A DNA stretch of 64,000 bases from Bolinopsis microptera (lineage: Eukaryota > Ctenophora > Tentaculata > Lobata > Bolinopsidae). The notes below the pieces were generated by a model. It did not search any database, was not told the DNA's origin, and saw only the letters and a list, made by a program, of their open reading frames with translations. How positions within the stretch are numbered: position 1 is the first letter of the stretch; every line of letters begins with the position of its first letter. Of the stretch, positions 1,021 to 32,510 are shown piece by piece. Where the stretch lies: the NCBI RefSeq assembly GCF_026151205.1, contig NC_087072.1, positions 18,119,669 through 18,183,668 on the forward strand. The letters are read 5' to 3'. The translations under genes and the position numbers were made by a program.

Positions 1021-2807
1021 TCCAAATGAAAAACTTGGCGTCCTTTTCTACAACATTTGCACATACCACATTAGATGATGATTGATCTTGTTTGAATCTA
1101 TTTATAATTATTAACCAGTTCAAAGTTGCGAATGTAAACTATTGATTTTAAAACTGCATAAGCAATAAGATAAAATTAATTTCAAACATAATTCTCAATA
1201 TCAAATATTATCAATTCAACATAAAATCATGCTCTTTATACTTTCCATATAGAATTTAAGTCAAGCAAGAAAGGTTCAGTAGATAATAAAATTCACTATG
1301 TAAATTTAAAAGTGTTTCTAAACATTTCAAACCATTATTTTAGCCGAAATACTGGTCGAATAAGAAATTATGCAATATATGATTATCTGAATTGCTAATT
1401 GACTGGATCTGAAAATGATTGTGTGGGGTTTACAAGTGGACCCTTTTCCCATCCCTCACAATTCCAAGTTCCCAAATCTTTCAAGAACTTCAACTATGTC
1501 AGCCTCTTTTCACAGTTGCAGTAAGTGTATATCCGTCATAATACTCGTGTTTATAGGGAAACATTTGAAATTAGAATTTTAAATAATATCCGGACATGTG
1601 CTGGTCGCAAAAATAAACGCCAACTTTAAATCTGTTCACGGTAACGGTACAACTACATGTATACAAACATTAAACAATCACATGTCAATTGTCAACTTAT
1701 CTTCTCCGTCTTGGATCAGTACAGAGGCACACGATTGACAATTAATATTTATATTAAAGTTCAACATTCGACATACATACTGATGAAATAAAGGATATAT
1801 CTTAAAATTAAAATTAAATAGCCAGTGTCAGAGTGACAAATAATAACTGTATAAAATTAGACAAATAATGGGTGATTTGGATAAGTGAATCTTAGCTAAC
1901 GGCTACAATAATATAAAGAAACAAGCGGTGGTCATTGCAGGAATGTTTTTCTCGTGCTGTAAGAAATTAATAACATTAAAGCTGAGGATCGTAAAGAATG
2001 TGTTAACAAGTTTACACATTTCTTTTGTGTAAAAAGGTATTTAGAAAGAAAAAAGTAGCTGCACCACAGTTAAACTTACTTAAATTAGATGTTTGGATAA
2101 ATCTTCATATGATTGCTATATGATATAATAAAAGTGATATTTTTCTGAATAGATTTAATTTTTGAGATGATTTAGTTGTTTGTTGCAGGATATTTTCACC
2201 TCACCCTTTAGAACCGCTCTGACATGGTTAGTACCTGACATTTGTGTCAGTTGCTAACCATATGGGCGGTATACAAGCACATTATTTCATTTAATTTCAT
2301 AAGATAATAATTTTAAAATTAATAGGTAAAGATTTAAGATATATCTAATAAAGTTTAAAGTTTAACTGTGAAGCAGAATGCCATAATGAAGTTCAGAATA
2401 TAAGTTCTAAAAACAGCGTGTAATAAAGTTTTACAATAGAAATAGTACAAACAGGTGTGTAATAATACGGTGGTGGCAAAATCGGTATAAAAAGAGCTAG
2501 AGGGGGAAAAGGGCTGATCTATATTTAGATTGGTCACCATGACTTTTATACCGACTTCTTCACTAACCTATAACTCTGCCCTAGGTAAAAACCACGGACT
2601 CATAAACTTTATATATCTAAAATACTTAAAATAATTCTTCAGCGAAATAACATGGTTTGAATGTCCGGACCTTGTCAGATCAGCTTGTCAGTGTCCTGAA
2701 GTCATGAAGTGCGAGTCTGAATGGAGCTGGAACAAATTTTCGTCAAAAGTCCCTCAAAAAAGAATCAGAAAAGAATCTATATCGGGCACTTTTGCCATTT
2801 GAAAAGT
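1021..2807. other. Intergenic, no gene seen
   Basis: AT-rich sequence downstream of the PH-Btk gene. I see no ORF with recognisable content. A short stem-loop lies at 2226-2259. Part of 2,600-2,807 is probably the 3' UTR of the minus-strand gene. Confidence 0.5.
2226..2259. other. Short stem-loop
   Basis: GGTTAGTACCTGACA (2226-2240) and TGTCAGTTGCTAACC (2245-2259) are inverted copies with three mismatches around a 4-base loop. It is too short for a typical microRNA precursor; a role is not evident. Confidence 0.4.
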
Positions 2808-5061
2808 TTAATATCTGGGACTGTTACCACTGGAATCAAGGCTGTGTTTAGTTTTGAAGGAGCCACCCTCGTCATCACTGAGTTCTCCGTCTGAGAACAC
2901 GTCTTCCTCCTCGTGGGTCTCTGAGCTGATAGACTTGGTGTGAGTTAGACTGTCCGTTTTATCTGATTTGTCCAGCTTCAGTGAGTGCATCATGTTTTGC
3001 AGGGACAGTTTCCGCTTTATGGTGTGTCGTTGTTGGTCTGCTGCGTTGCTAGCCCGCCTTGCTTCTGCTTCCATGCTGGCTCGTCTCGGGTCTATGCCCA
3101 TGTCTGAAAAATAACATGTTTGTTAGCTTATAATTTTACAGAGCTCGATGTTTAGTTCTAAAGATATTCAATACTTTGTTATTCTATTTCATCATGCACT
3201 TGTAAATGTATTATAATCAAAGAATAGTATCATTATTTATCTAAAATTAAGTAATATGTGTTACTGCAAAATTCGCATGAGAATTGTCACTTTTAAAACA
3301 GGAAGTTAGGTAAATGTAATCCTGGATAATTGAATGATTCAACGAATATTGCTGTACACGGGATATATGTAGATTCAATTAAAACGATAGGTTATTATTA
3401 GCCTTCATTATGGCGGTTTAAGGAAAATTTACTAAAAATCTAAAAAAATACATCCCAACCTACGATCATACATATAAAAATAACGTCAAATTCATCACCA
3501 ACCTGATATCCTATCGCACACGTATGTGTTCTCACAACCTGAGTCGTAATGTTTCTCAGTCTTGTGACAGCAGCTCCACTTCTTCTTAATGTACGCTCCA
3601 CTGTGATAGTGACTCAACATTCTCTCAGGGCACGACTTCTCTGACACTGCAGGGAGGGAGAGAGAGGTTAGATTATATATTAGATCATCACTAGTAAGCG
3701 CTAATGAACAGGGTTATAAATTAAGTGAGGTGTTGTTGAAGTCGCTTGATGATTATGGCAGACTTTTGACTTCTGTGTCAGATTCTTTGTGCTTTGCCTT
3801 TGTTTAAGTTCACAATATATTTTACAATATTTATCTGGCACAGAGCCAGGTCGGACGTGTAGGAGCCACTTCATTCACCCAAATTCGTCAAGTTGTCACG
3901 TCCAAAAGTATTATGGACGGAATGAAGAGCAGCTCATTAATGTATTACATAAAATATGATTTGATGCGATTATCGTAAGGTATGTAATTCACAATCGATG
4001 TTTATAATATCAGGTACTGCCAATTATATGCAGGTTGAAAAAGTCTAGGTTTATGGAGAGTTATTATTACAGAGTTATTGTTATTATGAGAGTTATAGTT
4101 ATTAGTTATAATTATTATGAGAGTTACAGTTATTAGAGTTAAAGCTATTATGAGAGTTGTAGGGAAAATACTTATTTTAGGTTACTTTAGGAGAAATAGA
4201 AGAAATATGGAATCACTAAATGATCAGATAATCCAGAATGATCTATAATAGGACGCACGAAACATTTGTTTGACCTTCTTCTGATCCAAAATAGGAAAAA
4301 AGGGCACGAGTTAACGCTACTTTTTTTGGCAAGCCATTAAATAAAACAAGCTCTTACCTAGTCGTATGCACTGTATCCACTCTTCTTGTGTCTGTTTAGT
4401 ATCACTTTGTAGATAAAGAGCTCTTAGCTTCTCCTTGTCTGAGTATACCACCTGCACATATCATTGTCTTAATACTCCTCTCTATACGTGACAATAACTT
4501 ATAGCCATCTCAACGTTAGTCTTAACAATAACCAGTACTTCCGGAGAAGAGAAATAGTACTGGCTCTAACATACGATGAACATTGAGACAACACCAAGAA
4601 TGTGTATTGAGGGACAGATAATTGCACTGCTCTTTGGTCTATCACATCACGGCAACAGCTTACTAACCTGGAATAGGCGGGGTCTGTTAAAGGTCTCTTC
4701 TTCTACAAGTTCACAACATCTGATGCAGTCCACGCTGATACGACCTTTCTCCTGGCAAACAATGTTACTGTTAGTTAAAAAACTGAACAGATCAAACTGA
4801 TATGCTGACTAAAAAAAGCTTCGTTCTAAATTATCAATCTTTGATCTACAATCTTGGCTATCACACAAAGAAATCGGCAATCAAAGAAGCGGAGCTGTTA
4901 GAACTCACCGAGTGTCCATTAGGAGTGTGATAAGTCAAAGTCTTGTCCGTCAAAACAAACCACCTTTCTTGGAACTTAGCATTGAAAGTGGTCTTGCTCT
5001 TACTGATGCTGCGCTTTGTCAGCATTCCATGTCTGACGGGTCTGTCAACTGTGCTAGCCAT
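2808..5061 (-). CDS. Stand-alone PH domain-Btk zinc motif protein
   Basis: Five exons on the minus strand: 5061-4909, 4751-4668, 4451-4358, 3646-3503 and 3103-2808. All junctions are GT-AG, the phases agree, and the product is 256 aa. Residues about 10-110 form a PH domain (KFQERWFVLTDKTLTYH near the start; FQVVYS and EEWIQCIRLG near the end), which in this family binds membrane phosphoinositides. It is followed directly by a Btk-type zinc motif with the HCCC ligands in order (YHSGAYIKKKWSCC, then GC). The remaining 100 or so residues are Ser/Lys/acid-rich and probably disordered. In known families this PH-Btk pair sits N-terminal in Tec kinases or C-terminal in RASA2/RASA3 RasGAPs. Here I find no SH3, SH2, kinase, C2 or RasGAP exon. 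A TTTTAG lies just upstream of the ATG, so an upstream exon, at least a 5' UTR one, cannot be excluded. Confidence 0.85.
4050..4165. repeat. Degenerate TTATTATGAGAGTTA repeat in intron
   Basis: Repeated variants of TTATTATGAGAGTTA lie in the intron between exons 3 and 4 of the PH-Btk gene. It is simple-sequence DNA with no coding signal. Confidence 0.6.
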
Positions 5062-6335
5062 CCTAAAACATAGTACATTAGCAAGGAAATGAGTCTGTGT
5101 ACTGCACTAATTGCTGATTAACAAGTTGCAGAACACGTGATACTCTAATTGCAGGCAGCGCGCACAACACGTGCACTTACCACGCTGTTTACTAGAGTTT
5201 CTGAAACGACTAGAGCAAAAATGAGAGCACATTAGATCATGAATTATCAATAAATGGGAAAACACAGGGGTCTAATCGAGTAATATAAGTGTTAAATTCC
5301 AGAAATATTTCATTATCACCAAAATAAAAACTCGAAACCCAGAAGTCTGATCTAATACAGAAAATTAGGCTACAGACACACCGCCAGCGCTTCAGTATAG
5401 CCAACCATAAATGAACTGTAGACCTACTGGCGGAAATTATGACATACTTTGCGCTGTATCAAAGGACTGCAAATGTTATTGTTACTACACACAATTCGAC
5501 TATTCTGCCCTGTGCAAAGTGGAAACTAAATACAATGCGCCATTTCCGACGCTATATAATATCGGTTGAGATCGAGAATGTACGTAGAGCAGCTAGGTGT
5601 CATGTGCGCGCGCTGCACGCGCACAACAAAGCCGTGTCTGACTTATAACTACAAACATTTGAGTCAAAGCGCCTTACTGAACAGTCACAATGTTTGTGGC
5701 AAGTTTAAAATGCAGGAAGTGAGCGGATCAATATCCAACCAGAAAGAAGCTTGGAAATATAGAAATAAGTTCTAAATTGATCAAGTTTCTATTATTGGAC
5801 GTTAAATCAAACCCGGTAGCCTAAATAAAACCAACCAAAAATGTGTACATACTTTAAAACAACTTCGTAAATTTAACAGGGCGGGCCAAAAGTTGTCAGT
5901 CCTTCTTAAATCCGGATGCTAAAACTTGGCCTGTATAAAACTCCAATCATATGTTCGAGGATCTGTAAGTCAATAATAAAGAATGTGATATTTTAGCCAA
6001 ATTCTTTAAATACGCGAATATAAAACATTCAACGCATACCACAAGCTTCAAAATCGCAACAACGGTAGCGAGAGTCCTGAGTTAGTTTAAATTTATGTAT
6101 CCTGAATAATAAACTAAGATGGCAAAACAGAGCAGTTGTAGTAAGCACTTTTTACATCTTTTGACAACATTAATTAGGTCACCATCTCATCAGCAAGCAA
6201 TTGATAAGATTCCCATGCGAGTTAAGTTATCACTTGATCGAATCCTAGTAATAAACGTGAGCTTGAAAAGCTCTACATCGGAGTTACTAGAGATCCATTT
6301 TCCGGCTGGTATAAGTTCGGAAATTCTAAACAACC
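5062..6335. other. Intergenic, no gene seen
   Basis: Upstream of the PH-Btk gene on its strand, so it should contain that gene's promoter and possibly a 5' UTR exon. I found no convincing TATA box or coding exon. Small plus-strand ORFs at 5439-5775 lack homology I recognise and overlap one another in different frames. Confidence 0.4.
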
Positions 6336-6761
6336 GGTAACACGACATCTGTCCGAAAGCGACATCTGTCCGAATCAGAAAATATGTTATTTGGACAATA
6401 GTTTATGTCGGATCCTACCGTACGATTTTCTTAAAACTTTCCATAAAGTATGGTGGTTATAGGACGAATAATATGTGTAAGTTTGAAGAATTTTTAAGAA
6501 AATCGTATCGTTGGATCTCCAGATATATGCTTTGGAACCACTGAGTACCACCGAATTGGATATATTTTTTGCGGTTAAGGTAATATCTTAAACTTGGCTC
6601 ATAGAAACTCGCTCAAACTTACACATATTATTCGTCATATAACCACCATACTTTATGGAAAGTTTTAAGAAAATCGTACGGTAGGATCCGACATAAACTA
6701 TTGTCCAAATAACATATTTTCTGATTCGGACAGATGTCGCTTTCGGACAGATGTCGCCCAA
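6336..6761. mobile_element. MITE with ~146-bp near-identical TIRs (Mutator-like size)
   Basis: About 146 bases from 6343 to 6488 recur in inverted orientation ending at 6756, with essentially one visible substitution. Each arm contains a doubled CGACATCTGTCCGA unit near its tip. The element is flanked by an 11-base direct repeat TCTAAACAACC (left 6325-6335, right 6762-6772), consistent with a 9-11-bp target duplication as in Mutator-like elements. The tips between that duplication and the TIR match poorly. No transposase lies inside, so it is non-autonomous. The near identity of the arms suggests recent movement. Confidence 0.75.
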
Positions 6762-7078: not shown

Positions 7079-13180
<6,102 letters not shown>

Positions 13181-14095: not shown

Positions 14096-15442
14096 TTACT
14101 TATCATCAAAACAAAGACGCCTTAGTTTTTGCTTGTAAATCGTCCTAATACCTGTCTGATATTCATCATGAAAAGGAATAAAAACGAACAAATTATCTTG
14201 ACTGGTCACAACGGCCAAGACATCGTGATAATAATACTCAGGTTTCTCTAATTCTGGCATCATACCCAATGTGATTCGTCCCTTAAATGCAGCAATATAA
14301 CTCCTTCCATCACTTTCATTGTCTTTAAATGTTGCATCAATTAGATCAGCATCAATTAGCTGTAGAAGATTAATCAGGTTTTCATCGACATATATGGGCT
14401 CCACCCCCAGCAGCACATCAAGTGAGTCCTCTGTCATCTGAAATTCTTCAAGGATCTTTTTAACATTAAATAGATCAGGTTGCCTTGCAATAGAGTTGAG
14501 AACTCCTAAATAATTAATGGGATGGGTCATGTCAACTAGAATAGATATAGCTCCACATCTTACATATCGATCACCAGATATTTTAGTTAGTATCATGTGA
14601 TTTGAGTCATATGTCAGTGATAGAATTTCACTTCCATGAACAGCATAATCTCCAGCGAAGAACCCAGGTGCAATAACACGTTCTTCTGCAAGGGATTGAG
14701 GCATTTTGATACTAGTAAACATGATACCACCATCGCTAAACCCAGAGAACATGGCATGCAAAACTTCGTCACTGTTCATGCCCAGTGCGGACGAAAAATC
14801 ATGCCTCATTGTTTCCATATCGTGATCTTTGGCAAACTCATCTATTTTGGCAAAATCATCTGAGCAACAACACATTCTCATTTTCATTCCATATTCACAT
14901 TCCATTTCATTTTCCAAAGATATAGAAACACAGTGCTCCGTGGTAGAATACAGAGCACAGCAAATTCCATCTTTGTCAAGGTAATCAATGCCAACATTAC
15001 GGTGTATACCTGCCTCATTTTCATCAATGTTTATGACAAAGATAGGAACTAAACTTGTCTGGAATTCTGTAGCTTTAGGAGCCTGTATGATGTAGCCTAC
15101 AATTTTACATGGCGACATTTTCATCTGAACATGCAACAATCCACCAAATGCTGGGATCAGACTTTTCCAAAAGCCGATGAGCCAATCCCATTTTTTGAAG
15201 GCATTTATGTACAGTGATCTAAGCTGTACCCATTCCATTGTCATGAGAGATTCCATGGGAAAATTATAGCTGATTGGATCTATAAAAAGTTTGTATTGCC
15301 TCAAAACGTTTACCCATGATGTTTGACAGTTGCATAGACTGTTCAATTTCTGATTTGTTACACTGAGTTCTATGAGATCATCACCACAAAGATAAGACAG
15401 TACCTTAACAAGCAGTTCATCAGGTAGGAGTGAAATTGCCAT
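14096..15442 (-). CDS. FBXO31-like F-box protein (single exon)
   Basis: An intronless 448-aa ORF. Residues about 4-50 are an F-box (LLPDELLVKVLSYLCGDDLI...), which docks SKP1 in an SCF ubiquitin ligase. The rest matches the FBXO31 substrate-binding architecture: WDWLIGFWKSLIPAFGGLL after the F-box, a Cys/His-containing middle, then APGFFAGDYAVHGSEILSL and TKISGDRYV, corresponding to the FBXO31 'PGLFKGTYGSHGLEIV / GDPNIPAG' region. A C-terminal AFKGRITLGMMPE...DVLAVV...FVFIPF stretch also fits the last strands of that domain. FBXO31 directs turnover of cyclin D1 and other substrates. Divergence is high, so substrate specificity is not implied. It lacks introns, unlike both neighbours, which may mean an old retrocopy, but no poly(A) tract or duplication remains. 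Start chosen at the first Met, directly before the F-box. Confidence 0.8.
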   Translation of the reverse strand: MAISLLPDELLVKVLSYLCGDDLIELSVTNQKLNSLCNCQTSWVNVLRQYKLFIDPISYNFPMESLMTMEWVQLRSLYINAFKKWDWLIGFWKSLIPAFGGLLHVQMKMSPCKIVGYIIQAPKATEFQTSLVPIFVINIDENEAGIHRNVGIDYLDKDGICCALYSTTEHCVSISLENEMECEYGMKMRMCCCSDDFAKIDEFAKDHDMETMRHDFSSALGMNSDEVLHAMFSGFSDGGIMFTSIKMPQSLAEERVIAPGFFAGDYAVHGSEILSLTYDSNHMILTKISGDRYVRCGAISILVDMTHPINYLGVLNSIARQPDLFNVKKILEEFQMTEDSLDVLLGVEPIYVDENLINLLQLIDADLIDATFKDNESDGRSYIAAFKGRITLGMMPELEKPEYYYHDVLAVVTSQDNLFVFIPFHDEYQTGIRTIYKQKLRRLCFDDK

Positions 15443-16715
15443 TTCACAGGCATTAGTGTAGAAATAAAGTCCTCTGTTAAGTGTAAGGGGCCATCTTTGA
15501 GCTTGGATAGTATAGTAGTGTGCAACTTTGCCGAACTTAGTGACCTAAGAGTTCTAAAAAAATTATACAAGGCAATGAAGTAATGAAGAAATATTATTAT
15601 TTCTTAAACTTTTGAAAGCTAACATAACAGTTTTACTATAGATATGATAATTGTGATGATAATGACAAGTTAAACCAAAATTTCATCAACAATTAGAATT
15701 GAAAGGCCTGATGTAATTGCTATGACCAATTTACTGGTCAACTGGTGTTTCGTTGTCCCCAATCTTGTTTACACTCGGTCACTTGTCAAGGCATGTAAGG
15801 TCATTCAGCGAATTTTCTTTGAAATAAAATGATGTATTTGTGTAACATTTTGAAAGTTTATTGATGAAAAAATAGCATTTTTAAAAATCTACATGTATGT
15901 TTTTACAAAATAAAACTGTAAACAAACTAAATTCACAATTTTCAAATCTAATTAGAACTCAGTCTAAACCCTTTAAAGATGATGATAGCTGCTAATTACA
16001 GCTCTCAGAACAATATATTGTGACAAATAAAATTATGATCTGCAAAACAAAATTAAGACAGCCTTTTCAAACATAAACCAAGTTCTGGTAGGAGTGAAAT
16101 ATAACTGAGGTAGATAATGATTGACAAGAATTCCAATTAATCACAATTTCGAGACTAGAGAAGCTATAGAGAACACTCCAAATAAATATCAGCTTTTAAA
16201 GAAAAAAATTAAATTTAAAGAAATATTAGAAATTTGATAATACCTAATTAAAAGCAAAGACGTCTTTAAGGTTTTTTTATAAGTGTGGTGAAAATGACTT
16301 TAATAAAACAAAAGTTAATAAAGATGCCTTCAATCTTAACTCCCCCTGTAAGGAAAATCCATTAGTTAGTTAATATGTCATAATATAGTACCAAGGCAGT
16401 GCCAGTTTTCAGCATTTTGGACCGCAATCGTAGGGGCATGTAGTTGGTTCAGATAACTCTCACCCTGACGACGGCGTCAAGAAATTATCAAATTATGCAT
16501 TTGCGCCATACTGGACACATTTTATATTTAATATTCTGTGGTTTGTAGAAATTACCAAATCCATTCAATCCTCTCTGTGAACGAACAATTTACAGCTTAC
16601 TATAAGAGCCCAGATTTCCACTCAAATACTGGCTATTCCATAATGCTATAGGACCTCAAAATAAGATCGTGCTCTACAAATTCGATCTATTCAAAGAAAA
16701 ATAGTATTATAAAAC
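15443..16715. other. Intergenic, no gene seen
   Basis: AT-rich sequence upstream of the F-box gene. It should include its 5' UTR and promoter, but no element is distinctive. It ends at the ATTT duplication that borders the next transposon. Confidence 0.4.
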
Positions 16716-18046
16716 ATTTGGTCATTGTAAAGTTTGCTTTGCCCATTTTGCTAACTTTTTGATTTAAATTTTTGAGCAGGTTGATAAAGAGCAATTTAAT
16801 CCTTTCTGATATCATTTTCATCTGAAGATTCCGAATTTTCTGAATTCTTTGGAATGAAGTTTCTATCTCATGTGGAGCAAAAGTTATGACCTGCTTTTCG
16901 ATGTGGAGCAAAAAAGTGTGGAGCTCCCCAATAAAATCTATGCTTTTTGACTATTTTGATCGCCATTTAACAAATAGATCCTGGACGTTAATTGCAAAAT
17001 ATTTTCACTGCCAAATCATAAAATGGACCTCAGCCAGTGTGGAGCAGTCGAAATATCCTCATATTTTTCGTCTCAACCAGGGGTAAACATTACAGTAGAA
17101 TCTCCGTCTTTTCACAAAATCTTAGTTTGAAGGAATACGCACCAGATAACATTATCAATAATGGTACACCTTGCTCAACCGATGCAGAGCAGCGAAACTA
17201 TTATACCCTAGTTGGGAATACTGATTGGGAAGAAACTGAGTTTTGAAAGTGAGTGTGATTAAAAACGATAAATACATCTAATCAGGCCATAAAAATATCA
17301 TTTTTTCTTGTGATTATGTTCAGACCCCCTGACTCTATTCTTTGGAACTGCTGATAAACCTAGTAATGCTCAACCATGTGGAGCAGAGGACTTTTACTGC
17401 ATAACATGGCTCCTCATCGGCTGATATGACTTGGATGAGAAATTAGAATGAGTATTTTAGCTTTTACAATAAATTACTACGGGTATCGGCCTTACAAAAT
17501 GACAGGCCTCACAAAATGACATGCCACATAGACCATGCTGTAGCTTAGGTTCCCTATACATTGAACCCTATTCCTTTTACTGTATGAAAGAAAAAGCATT
17601 AATTAACACTTCCTAAGGAATGATAATGACATAGAATCTATATTTCTTACATAAATATGGACGTTTTTGCTGTTCAGTCATTGCCCCGTCAAACTGTTAC
17701 CCAGCATGGAGACCAAAGTTTAGAATTTAACCCCAGAAAACCAGGTACTACCATGACTTATGTCAATCAAAGACTACTCTGGTCAAATAAAAAAACTGAT
17801 TTAGTGACTTTGGTAGAAGAAATGACAAAAAAATGACCTAGCCTCACAAAATGACAGTGTTATGCCTCACAAAATGACAGTTTTATTTTATGATACAAAG
17901 ATGGCATATTTATATTGGATGCCCCTTGCCTAATTATTGGTATTCTTAAACCCAGTAAGCTTATGATGAGCCTAAATGTGTTTGTTTGATCATCAATTTT
18001 GAACAAAATGCCTCACAAAATGACACCGAAAAGCCTTACAAAATGA

Positions 18047-19816
18047 CAATGTCTACACAGAACTAGGAGAAATACAAATTAATCAGCTTCCAAGTTTCTG
18101 TGACCTCTTACCTAAATCGAATACAGCTAATATATATCTACATGACTGCTCACCTGAAGAGGTGGCTAAGATCATATCGGAACTTAAGAATGGCAAGGCT
18201 AGTGATATACCAGTACATATAGTAAAGGCAGTATCAGGTATAATTAGTCCACTACTATCGGTATTGTATAACGAATGTATGCAACAGGGAGTTTTAAAGA
18301 CGACCTAAAAGTAGGTAAAATAAGTCCAATATATAAGAAAGAAAATGCTGAGCTTCTTGAAAATTACAGGCCTATCTCAACCTTAGCGATATTTGGTAAA
18401 ATACTTGAGAAGATCATATTCTCCAGGCTTTACAGTTTCTTTCAGTCGCAAGGATTATTATATGAAAATCAATATGGCTTCAGAAAAAATCATTCCACAA
18501 GCCATGCACTTAACTTCTCTGTCGACTACATTGAAAAATCACTAAGAGATAAAAATCATGTACTAGGCATCTTCATTGATTTAAGTAAAGCTTTTGATAC
18601 AATCTGTCATGATAAACTGCTTAAAAAACTGAATGATTATGGAATTCGAGGGACTGCAAATAAATTAATAGCCAGTTACCTCTCTAATAGACAGCAATAT
18701 GTTTCAGTACTTGGAGAAGAATCCGAAAAACTGTCTGTAATATTTGGTGTGCCTCAGGGGTCAGTATTAGGTCCCTTGCTTTTCATTATCTACATCAATG
18801 AAATATATAGAGTATCAGATCTAGGTAAGTTTATACTTTTTGCCGATGACACCAACATATTTGTTGTAGATAAATGTATAAAAACACTTTACTGCAAAGC
18901 TAACAAAATTCTTAAACTTGTTCATCAGTATATGAAGAGTAACTTGCTGCATATCAACACAAAGAAATGTTGTTATATCCACTTTAAGCCGAACTGTAGA
19001 AATGAACCAGATTCAAACACCAATGAATTAGAACTGACACTGAATAATATAATAATTAAAAAGGTAGAGGAAACTAAGTTTCTTGGAGTCATTATTGACC
19101 AAAAACTGAACTGGGATGCTCACTTAAGAGCGTTAAATAGTAAATTGAAATGTGAGATTGGTAGACTATGTGGAATTAGACGCTGTGTACCTAAAAAACT
19201 ATATAAGGACCTGTACCACACCCTTTTTGAATCACACCTATGTTATGGAATATCTGTTTGGGGAGGTGTATCAAATAATAAACTAGAAGCCATATTTAAA
19301 ACACAAAAGAAATGCATAAGAATTCTCTTTGGTGATAATGATGCGTACTTCAATAAGTTCAAAACATGTGCCAGAGTAAGGCCTATCACTAGGGATAAGA
19401 CCGGTAAAGTTATCAAGCAGATGTTAGGCAAAGATTTCTTTGAACTAGAACACAGTAAACCAATCTGTAACGAGTATAACTTCCTGACTGTCCACAATCT
19501 TCATAAGTTGCACTGTTTACTGGAAATGTTTAAAATTAATAAGTTCCAATCACCAGTCTCAATGTTCTCTTTATTCAACAGGTCACCAAGACGAGACAAC
19601 TACTTCATCCCACCCACTCCGTCCTCACTATTCATCTACCAATCAACCAGTATTTGGAATCACTGCCGTAAGTCAACAAGTGAAATAGACTTCTCCACTC
19701 CTATCAGTATATTCAAGAATAATCTTAAGAAAGCTTTGTTAGAACTACAATCTAAATATGACAGACAACTATGGTGCAGTTACAACTTTGATGCAAATGA
19801 ATTATCATTGAAATAG
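18047..19816 (+). pseudogene. Non-LTR retrotransposon reverse transcriptase, 5'-truncated and frameshifted
   Basis: The main open stretch (18275-19816, 513 codons) holds a reverse transcriptase domain in order: ISPIYKK...NYRPIS, YGFRKNHSTSHAL, FIDLSKAFDTICHDKLL, GVPQGSVLGPLLFIIYINE, then the catalytic FADDTN, and a C-terminal region with WNHC. Upstream codons from 18047 (PEEVAKIISELKNGKASD...) belong to the same protein but are in another frame. The frames meet near the TTTTAAA at 18291-18297, so one base has been gained or lost. No apurinic-type endonuclease domain is present upstream; the sequence there is the subterminal repeat of the enclosing TIR element. The motif set fits the CR1/Jockey/L2 group. 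It looks like a truncated LINE copy that landed in the TIR element. Confidence 0.85.
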
Positions 19817-20273
19817 GTTAATTAACTAAACTTAATCATATGAGTAAACCACGGTGTTATTGCAAAGAACCATGACAAGGGTATCAGACCTATATTAATC
19901 TAAGAGACGAAACAAAACGAATCATCATACAACAAATTTTAAAATCCTGCGGCACAGGATCCTGTTGTTTTCCTACTCTGCCTCTCCCAAACCCCTCTCT
20001 CCTTCTCCTTCTTCAGGTTTATTCTACAATTTTTTAAATTAGATAGCAGATATATTTTCTTTCGAATGTAGTAATGGCATTATACATTATTTGGTATCGT
20101 ATGTATGTTGTGTTTAGTGTTTGCTAACTAGGTATGTGCTATATATTTTGAAGAATTTTGAGGCTCACGACGTCTCGTCCCATGGGTTGAGTTGCAAGCT
20201 GAGTATATGTTCAAATCGCCTTACTTCGTATGGTGAAACATCGACAGGTTTGCCTTGACCTTTCGGACGAGTG

Positions 20274-20463
20274 TTTGCCCACCGGGGATCCAAAAATATG
20301 ATCACCATGAACATTACTTTGACACGTGAACTTATCAAACGACTGTAATGATTCCATTAAATTTTCTTAGTACATTTAGCTAGTTTATAGTAGATACACA
20401 CGGTCACAGAATAGAGGAGCACAATTGGGCTCTTTGTTCTGCGACCGTGTTTCCTCGGTGGGC
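20274..20463. other. Hairpin with ACACGGTC arms and flanking inverted GGTGGGC
   Basis: ACACGGTCACAGAA at 20398 pairs with TTCTGCGACCGTGT ending at 20450, and pairing continues inward (AGGAGC with GCTCTT), giving a stem of about 22 bp with few mismatches. Outside it, GCCCACCGGGGA (about 20277) and TCCTCGGTGGGC (about 20451) form a second inverted pair. It lies downstream of the reverse transcriptase. It could be a small nested MITE or a LINE 3' structure. Confidence 0.45.
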
Positions 20464-23400
20464 CGACAGGTTTTTGTTGTGTAGTAGTGCTGGGGAAAAA
20501 ACACGCTTTAAATATCAATGAATGTAAATATTGTTAATTGACATTAGTGCCACAGTTTATGTGGTAAAAACAAATTTATGGTCAAACATTATATATCGTA
20601 GAAGGGCATGATTTACCCACATCACTAAGCATCTGGATGGATAATTAGCACACAAGGATAAACTGAGCTTTAAACATGACCACCATCAATAGCATATAAC
20701 CATAGCTCCAAAATAAATAAATTGCTCTACATAGAAACATCTGGCCTGATCTTATCACATTGTGGTCCCCTGGGGTTCGGTAAAGCCCTTACAGGCAACT
20801 GGGTCCTTTTACCAGCCACAATAAAACTAGTCATGCCAGTACTGTCATAAACTGTAACCAACTATTTAAAAATAAGATATCTTTTGCTAGAATTTTAAAT
20901 TTTAAGCCATAGAGCAATCTTCTCAATTTTTAAATTTAAAAATAACATTTTACCCTAACTATGATGTGGTGGCATTTCATACTTAACTAAAATTCAACTT
21001 TGAAAGTCAATAGATTATTAGTCACAACAAAATTATAGTTTAAGACATCCATTTTGCATTGTGTTTCCATTATTAGAATTTATGATATGTATTGATTGAA
21101 TAATTGGTAATAAATTTAACTTTTGTTTTATTAACTTTTGTTTTATTTTCAGATTGAATTACTTTCATCATCTAAAATGGATCAGAAACAGTCAATACAA
21201 GAAGGGGTTAAAAATAATCATAATCTGACCGTTAACAATCAAGTAGCATTAAAAAAGTGTAGTTCTGATATCAAAACTTTGATTTCAAACTCTTTGATTT
21301 CAAACTCTGATTTCAAAAATCAACGAAATAAAGCTTCTATTTTGTGAAAGCAGAGAGTAATAACAACTCCTAAAACATGTCAAACGTTATCTAAACACTG
21401 AAAAGTGATCTATCCAGTCATAGAAAATATCAAATATAACCAAATACTGTGTTCAAGTATGAAAACAAAAAATGATTTTTACGCCTCACAAAATGACATT
21501 TTTAAAACTTTTTCAAAGTATAAAAAATGTTCCTTTTTTAATATATTCTACTAAAAACAGAACTGGTATAATGTAAACAACATATATATCTAACAGTAAG
21601 ACACGTGAAAGAATAATGAAACTTTTTCCCAAATCGGATTTGAAGTGATGCCGTTTTGGGTTGTCATTTTGTAAGGCACTATCTCACGCGAAATTGCCCA
21701 ACTTTTTTAAATCATCCTTTTTCCTGTAAAAGCTATTCTAATCTTCAATCTATTATATTTATCTAACTGTCCTAGGTGAAATCAAATTTCTATATAGGCT
21801 GCTGTTAAAAAATGACAGCCGTGACGAAATTGTCATTTTGTAAGGCATGTTTTTTTGGACGATTTCAAAGATGACAATTTTTATCGCAAAATTTATGGTT
21901 TTTCAATCAAATTAACCCCCGGGAAGAAAAATATACCTGTTGAACTACCTATCTGGATAATAAAACAAGAACAAAACTCATTTTTGTGCATTTCAGAGCC
22001 ATCTCCTTTTTCGTGTCATTTTGTAAGGCCGATACCCGTAGCAGAACAGATTGAAAAATTGTATTTAATAGGCTCAACCAGAGAGGAGCAGAATGGAATG
22101 ATAGATTGATAACACAACTATTTGTAAGGATCAGTGTTGTTATATTAGGATAAAGGAGGAATGATATCATCAATACTTAAGAAGCTGTTGATGTATGTAG
22201 TACTGTGTCCTTTAAAGAGAAATATGCCACCATAGAAAAAGACAATATGCTCAACCGTGAGGAGCAACAGGCTTTTCTACGGTAAAAAGAGTCTCCATGA
22301 TGGTCGATCTGTAGCCAATTTGTACGTAATGCAATTTAAAGTTTACTGGTATACTTTAAATACTTTTCTTACCATGATTGATGTTCCAGAACTGTTCAGC
22401 CAGAGTGGATCAGAGCTAGAAATGACATGTCATGTACGGGATTTCTCAACTGCCTAACATTTGATGAAGATCTCTCTTGCATGCGGCTGTAGAATGAAGT
22501 AGTGAGCTTCGAAAATCTAATACAACAGAAATCATCTCTGCTCCACACAGGTTGAGCACTGAATAGTTCCCGTGAAGTAAGTTTATTGACCACCAATATT
22601 ATAACATATTTTCTCTAGAATGAATAAAAATAATATCCCATGAAGCACTTAAAAGTTGTCTCTATTGATCAAAAGGAAGACCTCTTTTTGCTCCACATGG
22701 TTGAGATAGGCTGTTCTCGACTAAAGAGTCTGCATCAACGGTGAAAATATAGATACAGGAGTCAAGATGAAAATCACAGAAGTCACTTTATCTCAACCCA
22801 GAAAGAATTTAAAAGTTGGCAAATTTTTAACCATTTTGGGCTCCACAGGGTTGAGAGAAGTGTACTGAATATAAATATCCGTTTCAGTACTCAAAATAGA
22901 GTTAGTAATAGTTACCAAGCTAAAAAAATCTTACAGATAAATCAAATCAAATCAAAATATAATGACACAAACATCATCACACATCATCAAAAATATATCT
23001 ACTAAAGTTTAAAAATTATCTTTAATATATTGGCCTAAACAACCAAGTTAAAATGAATCTAATTTACATACCTAAACAAGATCTAAACAAAAGCATTATG
23101 AAAAGCTAATAAATTAGAGGGGTTTCAGCTAATAAGTTCATAGAGTTTCAACCAAAAACTTGACTGTTTAGCGTATGATTTTTGGTCTTGAAAATTGCCT
23201 AACTTTCAAGCTACTGCTCCACACAGGCTGAGCATTAAAAGTTGTCTTAACCGGGGCTTTCTGTGTAGATGGGACCTTTTTCTGAGAGTCTCAACCTGTT
23301 TTGACTGCCAGATTCAGTTACCAACGAGATTGCAAAAAGTTTAAAAATGTCACTTTGAAGCACTGATATGCTCCACATTGGCTGAGTAACACATATAGAT

Positions 23401-23562
23401 TACATGTTAAAGTGTCCAGTGAACATTTGTTTCCATCTTGGTGAAATATTAACAAAGGGTGAACACCAGGTGGCATGCTAGCTCACTAAATAGCTCAACC
23501 GGTCAAATTGTACCAATTTTGGCAGTCAAATTTGGGCAAAGCAAACTTTACAATGACCATTT

Positions 23563-26116: not shown

Positions 26117-26191
26117 TTTTATAGGCCTCCCCCAGCCTCGGATCTTAGGATTAGATTTGCAAAAATTCCTGAGACACAGGTGCAAAAGTTA

Positions 26192-26560
26192 AGACAGCAG
26201 AATAATCCTAAGACAGCAGAATAATCCTAAGACAAAATTTAAGAAATCCTGAGACAGCGAAAAATCCTGAGACAAAATTTAAGAAATCCCGAGACAGCGA
26301 AAAAACCTGAGACAAAATTTAAGAAATCCCGAGACAGCGAAAAAACCTGAGACAAAATTTAAGAAATCCCGAGACAGCGAAAAAACCCAAGACAAAATTT
26401 AAGAATCCTGAGACGCGCGAAAAAACCTGAGACAAAATTTAAGAAATCCCGAGACAGCGAAAAATCCTGAGACAAAATTTAAGAAAACCTGAGACAGCGA
26501 AAAATCCTGAGACAAAATTTAAGAAAACCTGAGACAGCGAAAAATTTTTAGATACAATTT
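26192..26560. repeat. Arm tandem array, ~39-bp unit (left)
   Basis: About nine copies of a unit containing CCTGAGACAGCGAAAAA and GACAAAATTTAAGAAA lie just inside the left tip of the fold-back element. The mirror array in the right arm is at about 32000-32450 and is slightly longer and more diverged toward its tip. Confidence 0.9.
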
Positions 26561-27385
26561 ATACAATAGCCACAAGAATATACATGGATATTACATCTTT
26601 TAATTTCTTGCAAAGAATATAATAAATACAATATTACTAGGTATAGTAGGAATGTCAATAAGTCAATAGAATTTGTCTGAAACCTCTATGTGCCTGCTAA
26701 TGAAGTGAGTATCCCAGATCATATCTTTCCAGATCATATCCCAGATCATATCTTCACAGATCATATCTTTACAGGTAGGACTGTATAATGGGGGCCCGAT
26801 GTTATAGCGGACATCATCTCCCCCCCCCCCCCCCTTACCCCTTCTTACCCCCAGTTCCATAGCGGATATTATGCCAAATTATTGGACGGAGATCGTCAAC
26901 TAATATTTCTTCGGATATTTCTCCGGTTTGCAGTTCCATAACCTTATCCGGAGACCATCTACGGTAATTTTGTTGATTCTCACAGAGCAAAGTGCAAAGA
27001 AACTGCCACAAACTGCTACAATCTCCGAGAAATCTACTTATTGAGTTATTGACTAGCTTGCTAAAATTCATCGGCAAATTACCGCTGCTCGAGTTACCTA
27101 GCCAGGCCCATTTCAGTTTTGAGTACTGGAGTCGGTTATCTAGTCAAAGCCTAGCTTTTTGGAACTTGCAAGTGCTTTTGCGGATTGTCGTGGATTTCGG
27201 CAAATAGTCGTGGATTTCGGCGATATTTTCAGATTATTCTTCAATGTCCTCAAACCTGAGCACTGGGACTACTTAAGTTTTTGCTACTATCTGAATTATT
27301 TGCTCAAGCTACTGGCTCGCTAGGTTCAAAGGTTTATTTCCTATTTATCATGAAAAAAAAAATTGTGCTGGGTAAAAGTTTACAC

Positions 27386-27459
27386 GGTGTTCACGCAGGT
27401 TTGAACACCCGACCTCGCGCAGAGCTAGCCGATCGCCTAGCCGCTTAGCTACTCGGGTG
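27386..27459 (-). other. tRNA-like (SINE-type) segment in left arm
   Basis: On the minus strand the segment has a pol III A-box-like TAGCTTAGCGG, and about 30 bases later a B-box-like GTGTTCAAACCTG, with CACCCGAG preceding, in the spacing of a tRNA. The acceptor stem does not close well and there is no clean anticodon arm. It is best called a tRNA-derived SINE head or tRNA relic, not a tRNA gene. Confidence 0.55.
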
Positions 27460-27505
27460 ATGTACTTATGAAATTTTTGATGTAAATATATATTTACCCC
27501 TTTTT

Positions 27506-27793
27506 ACCCCCAGTTCCATAGCGGATATTATGCCAAATTATTGGACGGAGATCGTCAACTAACATTTCTTCGGATATTTCTCCGGTTTGCAGTTCCATAA
27601 CCTTATCCGGAGACCATCTCACAGAGCAAAGTGCAAAGAAACTGCCACAAACTGCTACAATCTCCGAGAAATTCCCGGAGAGCTTCATCTCCGTATAACT
27701 GTATAATACAGTAGACGGAGCCGGAGAATCATCACCGTAGAAATGGACCTCCGTCTAATAATTTGGCATAATATCCGCTATGGAACTGGGGGG
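27506..27793. mobile_element. MITE-like inverted unit, CCCCCAGTTCCATAGCGGAT ends (left arm)
   Basis: CCCCCAGTTCCATAGCGGAT and about 25 further bases at 27506 recur inverted ending at 27793, enclosing sequence that is itself partly palindromic (CTCCGTCTACTGTATTATAC). A partial copy of the same left half is at about 26,850-27,040. The mirror unit in the right arm is 30718-31024. It may be an older MITE captured by the fold-back element. Confidence 0.65.
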
Positions 27794-29341
27794 TTAATCT
27801 GATTAAAAGCTACAAAAAATTCCAGAAATGAGATGGCTGGTTAACACCTACCTTTGGAAAGCTCTGATGAACCTGCCTGTGGAGAAATAAACGCACTTAA
27901 CTTCACCTCAATTGAGCAATAACTATTTATCGCTTATTACTTCATTTATTTTGGATGTACAGTGTGCTTCGTAACTAATTTATTATTACAAAGTTTACTT
28001 TCTAATAAGCTAAAACGACAACTAATCTTTCGTTTTACTCCCTACTGTACAGGTTTACTCGTCAATCCAGGTATATGAGAATTTGTGAGAATGGTCTTGA
28101 AACTCTGAAAAGAGGGAAGCAGTTTTGGGGACGGGGAGATTGAAGCGGGTGGGCGACAAATCAGGAAAACAACAATTTCAGGAAAACAACAATTTTATTT
28201 AGTATCAGTTACAGCAAACAAAAAATATATTTTATATAATATAATATAACTAGGACGAACTTTAGTTTAGAAATCTTGGGGGACTTGGAGTAGCAAGAGA
28301 TTGACTAGAAGGTATATACCTTTTACCAAAAACGTCGAAAAGAATCCTGGGTGATACAGGATCGGAGAGTACAGACCATAAAGTTTACGCACCCACCTTT
28401 GCCTCCAGAATTCTTGGTTGGTTGAAAATGTATGCTAACTTGGTCGTTTATACTCCAAGTCCCTTTGTTAAAAGAAGTAATATTATGTACGTCTGGAGTT
28501 AACTTCATTCAATAATAACAATATCAATATAGTCAATATCAATATCAGACTAAACTATCGAATAAATTATCAAATATTATTTGTTAATTCGATCTGAATA
28601 AAAATTTAGTTAAGTTAAGATATTAAATAATTAAAAACATTACAACAAGTGGTTAAAAACGCCCAAAATTGATCTGAGAGCTTTTCAGTCTATAATACAA
28701 TCATGATAGTAATATTAAGTGTGTTAAGGCCACAGGGGGGGGGGGGTCGAGGCTTCAAAAAATGCAAAATAATATTATGCTTTGAATCAATATATATTTT
28801 TGTGGTGGATACTTTGCCACCACTCATTTGTCTGTAGCTATTTTACTTTTTTTAATAAATGAGGTTAACCAATTCTTCCGAAATTGGCTATGCAATATTG
28901 AGGTTAACGAAATTGATGCTTGGATTTGATTTCATGCTAAGATATTTTGTTGTTTCGATCAACGAATAATAAATCGTAATTTTTATTTCGCAATTGGTTG
29001 AAAATGAAGGATCCAAAGTGGTTAAAAACGAGGTTAACCTCTTATTTCATTGATATCGAGAAGAATTGAGATGAAAGTTATTATCATTCATGAAGTAAGT
29101 TCAGTGTATTTTAATTTCAAAACGTAACTCGTACTAATTTATTACTTCAAATCTACTTCAAATCTAAAAAATGAGGTTAACCAGGTCAATTATAACCACT
29201 AAAATACATACATGAGTGTCTAATTTTCAATCAAACTCAAGACATTAGTTAGCTATATATTTGTAATAGAACGCTGGGAAGTTTGATCACGAGAAAAATA
29301 TGATTTGAAACAACTATGACTTGGTAGCGATATTGACCATT

Positions 29342-30349
29342 AACATACGAACCCCCCCCCGGCCCCCCCCCCCCTATTGTAAGCCCCCCGGCTTACAATT
29401 GACCCCCCATGCAATTACACTGAGTCAATTGATCTCAGTATAATAACATGGGGGTTAATTGTCGGGGGTCAATTGTCGTACTAAGCCCTAGATTGTACCT
29501 GCTAATGAGGTGAATATCCCAGATCATAGCTTCACAGGTAGGACTGTTTAATGGGGGCCCTGATGTTATAGTGGACATCACTTCCGTCACTACGTAGTAG
29601 CTCGTGACACTGGGCTCCAGTTGGACGACCTTCGAACTGTTATGTGCGATCAAGACGTGTGGAGGCAGACAGTGAATGGGAGTTCGATCGAGGATCGCCG
29701 AAAGTAAGTAAGTTGTTCAATCCCCCAGTACCTTTATTATTATAATTACCCTCCTAGGCTCCTACATCCTACCCGTTTTTGATGCTGTAATCTTCCCGTC
29801 CCCAAAACCGCTAATTCCTTCTTTTCATAGTTTCAGGACCGTTCTAATACATACTCCTATACCTGAATTGACGAGTAATCCAGTACAGTAGGAAAGTTAA
29901 CTTTGTAGCTTTTTAGAAAGTTCGGAGTAATCACTCAGGTATAGTATCTCACAACGAAGCCCAATCTAAAATAAATGAAGTTATAAGCAATAAATAGGCA
30001 GTTATTGCTCAATTGAGCTGAAGTTAAGTGTGTTTATTTCTCCACGGGCCAGTCCATCGGAGCTTTCCCAAGGTAGATTTTAACCAATCTCATTTCTTGA
30101 CTGTTTTGTATCCTTTAATCAGATACGGGAGGGGAAAGTGATGTCCACTATAACATCAGGGCCCCCATTATACAGTCCTACATGTGAAGCTATGATCTGG
30201 GATATTCACCTCATTAGCAGGTACAATCTAGGGCTTAGTACGACAATTAACCCCCATGTTATTATACTGAGATCAATTGACTCAGTGTAATTGCATGGGG
30301 GGTCAATTGTAAGCCGGGGGGCTTACAATAGGGGGGGGGGGGGGGTTCA
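29342..30349. mobile_element. Second inverted unit inside the fold-back spacer
   Basis: About 240 bases at 29342-29590, including CATGGGGGTTAATTG, GCTAATGAGGTGAATATCCC and ATGGGGGCCC, recur inverted at 30120-30349. Between them, 29780-30120 is a diverged direct copy of the right-arm stretch 30370-30715. This looks like a shorter relative of the fold-back element inserted into, or duplicated within, its spacer. Confidence 0.65.
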
Positions 30350-30717
30350 TTTGTCGCCCACCCGCTTCAATCTCCCCGTCCCCAAAACTGCTTCCCTCTT
30401 TTCAGAGTTTCAAGACCATTCTCACACATTCTCATATACCTGGATTGACGAGTAAACCAGTACAGTAGGGAGTAAAACGAAAGATTAGTTGTCGTTTTAG
30501 CTTATTAGAAAGTAAACTTTGTAATAATAAATTAGTTACGAAGCACACTGTACATCCAAAATAAATGAAGTAATAAGCGATAAATAGTTATTGCTCAATT
30601 GAGGTGAAGTTAAGTGTGTTTATTTCTCCACGGGCAGGTTCATCAGAGCTTTCCAAAGGTAGGTTTTAACCAGCCATCTCATTTCTGGAATTTTTTGTAG
30701 CTTTTAATCAGATTAAC

Positions 30718-31024
30718 CCCCCAGTTCCATAGCGGATATTATGCCAAATTATTAGACGGAGGTCCATTTCTACGGTGATGATTCTCCGGCTCCGTCTACT
30801 GTATTATACAGTTATACGGAGATGAAGCTCTCCGGGAATTTCTCGGAGATTGTAGCAGTTTGTGGCAGTTTCTTTGCACTTTGCTCTGTGAGAATCAACA
30901 AAATTACCGTAGATGGTCTCCGGATAAGGTTATGGAACTGCAAACCGGAGAAATATCCGAAGAAATGTTAGTTGACGATCTCCGTCCAATAATTTGGCAT
31001 AATATCCGCTATGGAACTGGGGGT
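30718..31024. mobile_element. MITE-like inverted unit (right arm copy)
   Basis: Mirror image of the 27506-27793 unit but about 20 bases longer: it contains ATCAACAAAATTACCGTAG, present in the partial copy at 26,940 but absent from the left-arm full unit. So the left and right arms have lost different pieces. Confidence 0.65.
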
Positions 31025-31070
31025 AAAAAGGGGTAAATATATATTTACATCAAAAATTTCATGAGTACAT

Positions 31071-31143
31071 CACCCGAGTAGCTTAGCGGCTAGGCGATTG
31101 GCTAGCTCTGAGCGAGGTCGGGTGTTCAAACCTGCGTGTACAC
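31071..31143 (+). other. tRNA-like (SINE-type) segment in right arm
   Basis: Inverted counterpart of the left-arm segment: TAGCTTAGCGG at 31079-31089 and GTGTTCAAACCTG at about 31122-31134, A- and B-box-like, in plus orientation. A few substitutions separate it from the left copy. Confidence 0.55.
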
Positions 31144-31417
31144 CGTGTAAACTTTTACCCAGCACAATTTTTTTTTCATGATAAATAGGAAATAAACCTT
31201 TGAACCTAGCGAGCCAGTAGCTTGAGCAAATAATTCAGATAGTAGCAAAAACTTAAGTAGTCCCAGTGCTCAGGTTTGAGGACATTGAAGAATAATCTGA
31301 AAATATCGCCGAAATCCACGACTATTTGCCGAAATCCACGACAATCCGCAAAAGCACTTGCAAGTTACAAAAAAGCTAGGCTTTGACTAGATAACCGACT
31401 CCAGTACTCAAAACTGA

Positions 31418-31730
31418 AATGGGCCTGGCTAGGTAACTTTTGATTGATTCGAGCAGCGATGAATTTTAGCAAGCTAGTCAATAACTCAATAAGTAGATTT
31501 CTCGGAGATTGTAGCAGTTTGTGGCAGTTTCTTTGCACTTTGCTGGGGGTAAGAAGGGGTAAGGGGGGGGGGGATGGGCCTGGCTAGGTAACTTTTGATT
31601 GATTCGAGCAGCGATGAATTTTAGCAAGCTAGTCAATAACTCAATAAGTAGATTTCTCGGAGATTGTAGCAGTTTGTGGCAGTTTCTTTGCACTTTGCTG
31701 GGGGTAAGAAGGGGTAAGGGGGGGGGGGGG
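31418..31730. repeat. 155-bp tandem duplication unique to the right arm
   Basis: The stretch from GGGCCTGGCTAGGTAAC through GGGGTAAGGGGGG occurs twice in a row (31420-31570 and 31576-31730) but only once in the left arm. The two G tracts are the likely site of unequal exchange or slippage. Confidence 0.85.
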
Positions 31731-32510
31731 GGGGGGAGATGATGTCCGCTATAACATCGGGCCCCCATTATACAGTCCATATGATCTGTGAAGATATGAT
31801 CTGGGATATGATCTGGAAAGATATGATCTGGGATACTCACTTCATTAGCAGGCACATAGAGGTTTCAGACAAATTCTATTGACTTATTGACATTCCTACT
31901 ATACCTTGTAATATTGTATTTATTATATTCTTTGCAAGAAATTAAAAGATGTAATATCCATGTATATTCTTGTGGCTATTGTATAAATTGTATCTAAAAA
32001 TTTTTCGCTGCCTCAGGTTTTCTTAAATTTTGTCTCAGGATTTTTCGCTGTCTCAGGTTTTCTTAAATTTTGTCTCAGGATTTTTCGCTGTCTCGGGATT
32101 TCTTAAATTTTGTCTCAGGTTTTTTCGCGCGTCTCAGGATTCTTAAATTTTGTCTTAGGTTTTTTCGCTGTCTCGGGATTTCTTAAATTTTGTCTCAGGT
32201 TTTTTCGCTGTCTCGGGATTTCTTAAATTTTGTCTCAGGATTTTTCGCTGTCTCAGGATTTCTTAAATTTTGTCTTAGGATTTTTCGCTGTCTTGGGTTT
32301 CCTTAAATTTTGTCTCAGGATTATCTGCTGTCTTAGGTTTCCTTAAATTTTGTCTTAAGACTTTTCGCTGTCTTAGCTTTTTTTGACATCTCAGGTTCGC
32401 TTAAATTTTGTCTCAGCTTTTTTTGCAGTCTTAGCTTTTCTTAAGCAGTTTGTCTTAGGAATTTTTGCAAATCCAATCCTAAGATCCGAGGCTGGGGGAG
32501 GCCTTTTTAT

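Follow-up and report, generated by a model that had tools for sequence, protein, structure and literature searches.

Nested DNA transposon families of Bolinopsis microptera carry evenly spaced motif arrays that may dock their transposases

Why should two transposons, one lying inside the other, each carry many copies of a motif of its own at long and nearly even distances? The question is raised by a 64-kb stretch of contig NC_087072.1 of the ctenophore Bolinopsis microptera (hereafter the window), in which an initial annotation, made from the sequence alone, had described two nested elements with private motifs repeated near their ends. By searching the genome (264.65 Mb in 232 contigs), we found that these are two young cut-and-paste DNA transposon families, one of which landed within the other. 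We propose that the motif arrays are transposase docking sites selected for both sequence and spacing, like an extended inverted repeat/direct repeat (IR/DR) arrangement or the subterminal repeat (STR) system of Hermes, and we give this reading a probability of roughly 0.6.

The ends of the outer element were confirmed: its 26-bp terminal inverted repeats (TIRs) are perfect and ATTT stands on both sides (Table 1). With up to three mismatches, the TIR occurs 35 times in the genome, as 17 opposite-strand pairs and one single end, and all 18 loci were read. Twelve are standard copies of 2202–2239 bp, three are enlarged (6839 bp in the window, 9093 bp in locus L013 and 6811 bp in L018), two measure 412 bp and one is one-ended. 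Copies of both elements across the genome share their end points. The outer family makes a target site duplication (TSD) of 4 bp, which is free of mismatches in 16 of the 17 two-ended copies (ATAT, TTAT, CTAT, TTAA, AAAT, ATAC, ATGT, ATTT and ATAA were seen), with TA in the middle of 13 of these 16. The lone imperfect case, L009 (TTAT/ATAT), aligns with L010, whose TSD is perfect, at 98% over 1.9 kb including the element, so that the two represent one insertion within a copied host repeat. The one-ended copy (L011:9285–9792) breaks off after 508 bp; a second TIR was not found nearby, and beyond the break there was neither a motif array nor an open reading frame (ORF) of at least 90 aa. Because the 12 standard copies diverge by only 1.2% on average (0.3–3.0%), the outer family is young.

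The inner element had been assigned a 28-bp TIR, and a perfect 28-bp inverted repeat (17477–17504 and 22014–22041) does bound it. Comparison across copies revealed that only 25 bp, starting CGGGTATCGG, are the TIR proper; the rest is the TA target and an outermost C/G pair that matches by coincidence. This TIR has 144 genome matches at up to three mismatches (100 listed); 30 inner loci were examined, and TA was present on both sides in all 25 two-ended copies. Scanning 17 other outer loci, we found the TA target of the inner insertion uninterrupted in 13, that is, in the state before the insertion; the exceptions comprise both 412-bp copies, the one-ended copy and L018, in which a retrotransposon sits there. 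Since the TSDs differ and the sequences are unrelated, the two elements share an architecture and not a lineage. Of the earlier suggestion of an undescribed lineage with a shared design, the design survives, as evenly spaced arrays in both, and the lineage does not, as these are different kinds of transposon.

Motif matches were scored out of 16, with thresholds of at least 12 for outer sites (at least 14 for strong ones) and 14 for inner sites. The window copies contain 13 outer matches, two of which overlap, and 10 inner sites, all perfect, whereas the rest of the 64 kb has one outer-type match at 13 or above and no inner-type match at 14 or above, in keeping with two nested elements that each have a private motif. 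In the standard outer copy 14 matches reach score 12, whereas 20 dinucleotide shuffles of it average 0.1 and never exceed 1; the window copy is missing one strong site, at position 1735 of the standard copy. The strong sites of the standard copy L014 start at 309, 454, 648, 791, 968 and 1124 on the plus strand and at 1269, 1419, 1569, 1735, 1888 and 2042 on the minus strand, weaker matches at 189 (+) and 1112 (−) being excluded from the spacing figures. Repetition of the motif was annotated correctly, but the outer sites are more than subterminal: they cover the whole 2.2 kb, with a single switch of orientation mid-way from six plus to six minus sites. Their mean interval is 157.5 bp (coefficient of variation (CV) 0.09), with a period of 157 bp (R 0.89) that none of 4000 random placements equalled. 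The outer site is imperfectly palindromic, GCTCAACC with the near mirror GTGGAGCA, which suggests that it is read by a dimer.

The inner motif, 16 bp long (GCCTYACAAAATGACA), occurs 10 times over both arms, at 10, 27, 362, 385, 531, 554 and 909 (+) and at 1088, 1255 and 1438 (−). When close pairs were merged, the resulting seven clusters fell on a 178-bp grid (R 0.99; 0 of 4000 random placements). The arms mirror each other in part, with sites 9, 361 and 530 bp in on the left against 9, 359 and 538 bp in on the right, and in both elements the orientation is mostly opposite on the two sides, as had been noted. Furthermore, the motif is kept while the DNA around it changes: relative to copy L027, motif bases differ at 0 of 160 in L056, 0 of 160 in L057 and 1 of 160 in the ends of the coding copy L054, and non-motif bases at 74, 84 and 73 of 1302, respectively.

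The outer motif is not a satellite: its core has 74 matches in the genome, and 70 of them fall within the outer family or a sister family; at up to one mismatch there are 49 matches, 44 in the outer family and three in the sister. Two stray matches led to this sister through L066, an element of 2281 bp with a different TIR, the tip GGTCAT in common and the TSD TTAT. The L066 TIR forms six pairs of 1.8–2.3 kb in the genome, and three of the six copies were read (L066; L067, TSD ATAT; L068, TSD TTAT). The best BLAST matches between the outer and sister families are 38 bp long (E 0.001 for L067, 0.012 for L066 and L068), and the ungapped identity of spacers, at the best of 13 offsets, is 0.35–0.45 in six spacers against baselines of 0.26–0.31 averaged over offsets and 0.27 by composition. 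The motif and its outermost spacing are nevertheless kept: outer and L066 strong sites lie 309/308, 454/452 and 648/646 bp from the left end and 189/189, 343/342, 496/495, 662/659, 812/815 and 962/956 bp from the right end. The sister's nine strong sites are evenly spaced, with a CV of 0.14. We simulated this at the indel rate measured in outer copies (0.158 per substitution, mean 7.2 bp), and chance gave 0 of 20000 for the nine well-kept intervals at d 0.3, 0.6 and 1.2, while for all 13 intervals P was 5e-5, 0 and 0. At 0.05 indels per substitution of 3 bp, the values for nine intervals were 0.063, 0.0024 and 0.0001. Selection therefore seems to act on how far the outer sites lie from the ends. 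Among further outer-type candidates only the L066 family held up. A half-site pair pattern gave 51 matches against 77 in a backward control and is therefore mostly noise; L069 and L070, put forward as relatives, have only the half-site pair and are unrelated, and the single motif matches L071 and L072 are isolated within the ~650–700 bases around them, consistent with chance.

Arrays of this kind could instead bind a host factor, for example an insulator, activator or replication protein, that keeps the elements open or expressed, in which case even spacing would reflect placement between nucleosomes and not end-pairing. It fits this that outer sites fill the entire element, including a centre not obviously needed for end recognition, and that both periods, 157 and 178 bp, would be nucleosome-like. 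Yet the motifs of the two families are unrelated, the terminal inner site sits within the TIR, and the strong outer sites change direction only once. With the outer motif so nearly private to its own kind, a general host factor is unlikely. We consider it much less probable still that the arrays arose as tandemly duplicated satellite units, which would since have decayed and now be functionless. A worn satellite would be expected to leave near-even spacing, L066 contains one internal duplication of 62–109 bp, and inner self-matches around the sites run to 39–41 bp, longer than the motif. In contrast, self-comparison of the outer element (E up to 0.01) yielded nothing except the TIRs and three matches of 17–31 bp at motif sites, and neither the orientation switch nor the retention of motifs while other bases change, within the inner family and between the outer-type families, is what decay would leave.

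A coding relative was found for the inner element. In two loci ORF-bearing DNA separates positions 670 and 671 of the 1462-bp standard sequence, ~4.2 kb of it in L054 and ~4.7 kb in L061, which lacks its left end and some of the right arm. L054 is 5667 bp long, with both TIRs and TA on both sides, and has an open 574-codon transposase frame that matches DDE_1 (PF03184); the DDE_1 matches (E 6.3e-6 in L054, 2.3e-6 in L061) pass the Pfam curated cut-off. Its motifs FNFDET, DGH and QPLDQ give a DD36D triad, with 36 residues from the second to the third D; in the pogo DDxD triad this distance is about 30–36 residues. Because a DDE_1 coding copy shares its arms, its TA TSD and this triad, the inner family is, on sequence grounds, pogo-type, and the many 1.46-kb copies, in which both arms are retained, are best read as internal-deletion derivatives of the coding form. 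The initial annotation had found no nameable family for either element. That view needs revision for the inner one, which has a full-length coding copy in L054; it may hold for the outer one, where searches by TIR found no coding copy.

In a genome search with the transposase protein, 77 of 580 candidates were scored and gave one full-length open frame, three pieces of L061 and further pieces on C11 (two, at 50%) and C12 (one, at 54%); the remaining 70 align only from residue 489 or beyond, mostly over the last ~40 residues. As the last ~40 codons (roughly L054:3267–3450, minus strand) match ~70 other places in the genome, this tail is probably a dispersed repeat, or an intron, and not transposase. 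The N-terminal part gave no credible Pfam match to a CENP-B/psq-type helix-turn-helix, and the best matches in a PDB sequence search had E 0.31 or worse. Downstream of the transposase frame, L054 has two further minus-strand ORFs, at 989–1342 (118 aa; its RanBP zinc-finger match, E 0.0045, is below threshold) and 1925–2905 (327 aa, cysteine-rich, with a counterpart in L061 that is near-identical as judged by eye). Neither reaches the Pfam cut-off.

For the outer family, stop-to-stop frames above 80 aa were not found in the standard element, nor was a transposase in the long copies (L013, L018 and that in the window). The full TIR pattern returned only the 35 known ends; an 18-base version at up to two mismatches gave 159 matches, with no new close opposite-strand pair among the 100 listed. 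The family is presumably non-coding and moved in trans by a transposase absent from the finds in this assembly. Kolobok and piggyBac were rejected, TTAA being the TSD in just two of 17 copies, as were hAT, P and MuDR, which have TSDs of 7–10 bp; flanks compared to 8 bp share no repeat longer than 4 bp across copies. The outer TSDs are 4 bp and AT-rich, as Sola2 membership calls for, and Sola2 has in common with them ATAT, AAAT and ATTT as well as short TIRs (PMC3627910); this likeness is one of TSD and TIR, the available part of the Sola2 text making no mention of repeated motifs. Since the outer transposase is not at hand, Sola2 is an unproven lead and not a test.

In both families the motif most likely binds a putative DNA-binding protein of the element itself, which is probably the transposase. 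Such a protein would dock at the repeated motifs, perhaps as a dimer on outer sites. Held at near-even distances and in opposite orientation in each half, the bound protein could oligomerise, and the oligomer would loop the element and draw its TIRs together. The docked protein might instead be a repressor of the kind known for P or En/Spm, whether a shortened transposase or another protein of the element, and the two extra ORFs of L054 are candidates for it. Their sub-threshold Pfam results, and the fact that the terminal inner site belongs to the TIR, speak for the active transposase, and we regard a repressor as improbable.

Several observations weigh against docking sites selected for sequence and spacing. 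The nine intervals were selected post hoc; the four central outer/L066 intervals differ by 21, 26, 14 and 3 bp, and with all 13 intervals at the lower indel rate P rises to 0.97, 0.59 and 0.095 (d 0.3, 0.6 and 1.2). Gapped spacer scores beat shuffles (z >3) in four of 13 spacers, all near the ends, and given these and the ungapped identities the spacers are near saturation yet faintly related. The sister is not strictly periodic (P 0.12 for nine sites, 0.52 for 13). Inner symmetry is partial: the left arm has pairs (26, 384 and 553 bp) and no site at ~190 bp, the right arm an extra site at 192 bp, and the 538-bp site is reversed. Motif bases differ from L027 at 16 of 160 in the inner copies L035 and L059 and at 33 of 160 in L058, and L059 is without the entire site at 909. 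The 412-bp outer copies (L009 and L010) keep TIRs and TSD with half-sites only and no full site, so that full sites may be dispensable if the deletion preceded insertion; this element may also have lost its remaining sites after inserting. Finally, no transposase source for the outer family was found in the assembly.

How do these arrays compare with known end-recognition systems? In Sleeping Beauty the distance from outer to inner site is ~165 bp. As set out in the available parts of the sources cited here, the IR/DR arrangement of that transposon, with transposase sites at the outer and inner parts of the TIR and ordered end-pairing, can be likened to the present arrays, but it has two direct repeats per end (PMC7827188), whereas the inner element has six sites on the left and four on the right and the outer element has them throughout. 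Hermes transposase (hAT) binds several short phased repeats, two of which form a quasi-palindrome, mostly in opposite orientation at the two ends, and their phasing is important (PMC10368747). These motifs are only 4 bp long (AAGT), with five of them in the terminal 55 bp at either end, and the TSD is 8 bp, whereas sites here are 16–19 bp long and mostly 140–200 bp apart. The CACTA/En-Spm element Tgmt resembles our elements in its many direct and inverted subterminal motifs, thought to be bound by a TNPA-like protein, and differs in its dense array (24 repeats in 732 bp), CACTA tips and 3-bp TSD (PMC2613891). Galileo, of the P superfamily, has several THAP sites along a long TIR, but these number three (~70, 561–577 and 701–718 bp), the inner two in long direct repeats (PMC3688188). 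Among pogo elements, Passer shares with the inner family the TA TSD, a TIR below 30 bp and a DDxD transposase (DD35D there, DD36D here); it measures 1.6–4.0 kb with one ORF, as described in the part of the source at hand (PMC9976928), against 5.67 kb and two extra ORFs in the inner coding copy, which is further set apart by its TIR start and its tenfold motif over both arms.

Thus Hermes, CACTA, Sleeping Beauty and Galileo have sites dense near the tips or a few extra per end, whereas here regular long spacing runs through the whole element, and in the outer-type families the outermost spacing has outlasted the intervening sequence. The elements are of an ordinary kind, young non-autonomous DNA transposons, one of them pogo-type; what is unusual is the layout, with long even spacing and, in the outer family, whole-length coverage. 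A search of open-licence papers by title and start of abstract returned no description of whole-element motif arrays at such spacing. If the proposed binding is real, these families would offer a natural series for how transposases pair chromatin-wrapped ends.

A bolder proposal, which we hold tentatively and think rather doubtful, is that unrelated transposons converged on a chromatin-scale ruler, with transposase sites spaced by one or two nucleosome lengths (157 and 178 bp) and end distances kept within a few bp while the DNA between drifts. The nucleosome link of these periods is one that we infer. The transposase would bind the linkers of a phased nucleosome array and pair the ends through folded chromatin, and the pogo case would then resemble an ancestral form of the action of CENP-B on alpha satellite. 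CENP-B, a domesticated pogo-like transposase, binds a box of 17 bp that usually occurs in every second ~171-bp unit; its dimers can loop two boxes, and the box adds precision to nucleosome phasing, according to the portions of the sources at hand (PMC8997354, PMC8122249). It differs from the present case in acting on a tandem centromeric satellite and not on a transposon, and its motif is dissimilar by eye. Were binding true, the inner family would give a concrete route from a pogo transposase to a centromere protein at nucleosome pitch.

Later insertions, a retrotransposon in the inner element and a ~135-bp repeat in the outer right arm, explain why the window copies exceed their standard 2.2 kb and 1.46 kb. 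The positions of all features are collected in Table 1.

Table 1. Features of the nested elements (window positions)
Feature	Position	Strand	Remark
Outer non-autonomous DNA transposon	16720–23558	+	standard copy 2.2 kb; window copy enlarged by insertions
ATTT TSD, left	16716–16719	.	identical to 23559–23562
ATTT TSD, right	23559–23562	.	
Outer TIR, left	16720–16745	+	perfect, 26 bp
Outer TIR, right	23533–23558	−	perfect, 26 bp
Outer motif sites left of inner insertion	16893–17385	+	starts 16893 (weak), 17028, 17173, 17368
Outer motif sites, left half continued	22072–22412	+	starts 22072, 22249, 22394; weak overlapping − match 22382
Outer motif sites, right half	22539–23387	−	starts 22539, 22689, 22839, 23215, 23369
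Dispersed repeat in outer right arm, ~135 bp	~22937–23071	.	many matches elsewhere; later insertion
Inner pogo-type non-autonomous element	17480–22038	+	standard 1462 bp; window copy holds retrotransposon
TA target, left of inner element	17478–17479	.	
TA target, right of inner element	22039–22040	.	
Inner TIR, left	17480–17504	+	25 bp; contains first motif site
Inner TIR, right	22014–22038	−	25 bp; contains last motif site
Inner motif sites, left arm	17489–18048	+	starts 17489, 17506, 17841, 17864, 18010, 18033
Inner motif site, right arm	21483–21498	+	opposite to neighbours
Inner motif sites, right arm	21662–22029	−	starts 21662, 21831, 22014
Non-LTR (long terminal repeat) retrotransposon inside inner element	18053–21147 (approx.)	+	borders by eye against standard copy; later insertion

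The retrotransposon in the window has an RVT_1 ORF at 18272–19816 (Pfam E 4e-37), and its end consists of two units of 15 bp, TTAACTTTTGTTTTA. Reverse transcriptase and endonuclease domains mark the insertions in L013 and L018 as non-LTR retrotransposons too. Such elements lie within at least four of the copies read: that in the window, L013 (826–5849), L018 (1834–5808) and L050 (1433–4366). In L018 the retrotransposon (1829–6404) breaks the outer element ~8 bp or less from the position that the inner element takes in the window, which may be a hotspot or chance.

Elsewhere in the window, minus-strand reading frames at 11909–12820 and 14096–15544 match CCDC47 and an F-box protein with a cyclin D1-binding domain, which we take to be FBXO31-like. 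Rfam gave no match at its gathering threshold. A 9-mer scan of the window for other wide-spaced arrays listed none, but with its 2.6-kb limit and capped list it missed even the two arrays described here and so does not argue that others are absent. A third repeat structure, ~6.4 kb long (26124–32503), has inverted arms that are 98% identical over 546 bp, with more inside; its 40-bp tandem units with TGTCTCAGG are oppositely oriented on the two sides and its ends read as GGCCTCCCCCAGCCTCGGATCTTAGGATT, and its appearance is that of a foldback-type element whose subterminal repeats are dense. At 7602–8402, CCCTATAAAACACATCC-type units form tandem arrays, with a related-looking array in opposite orientation 31 kb away at 39579–39685.

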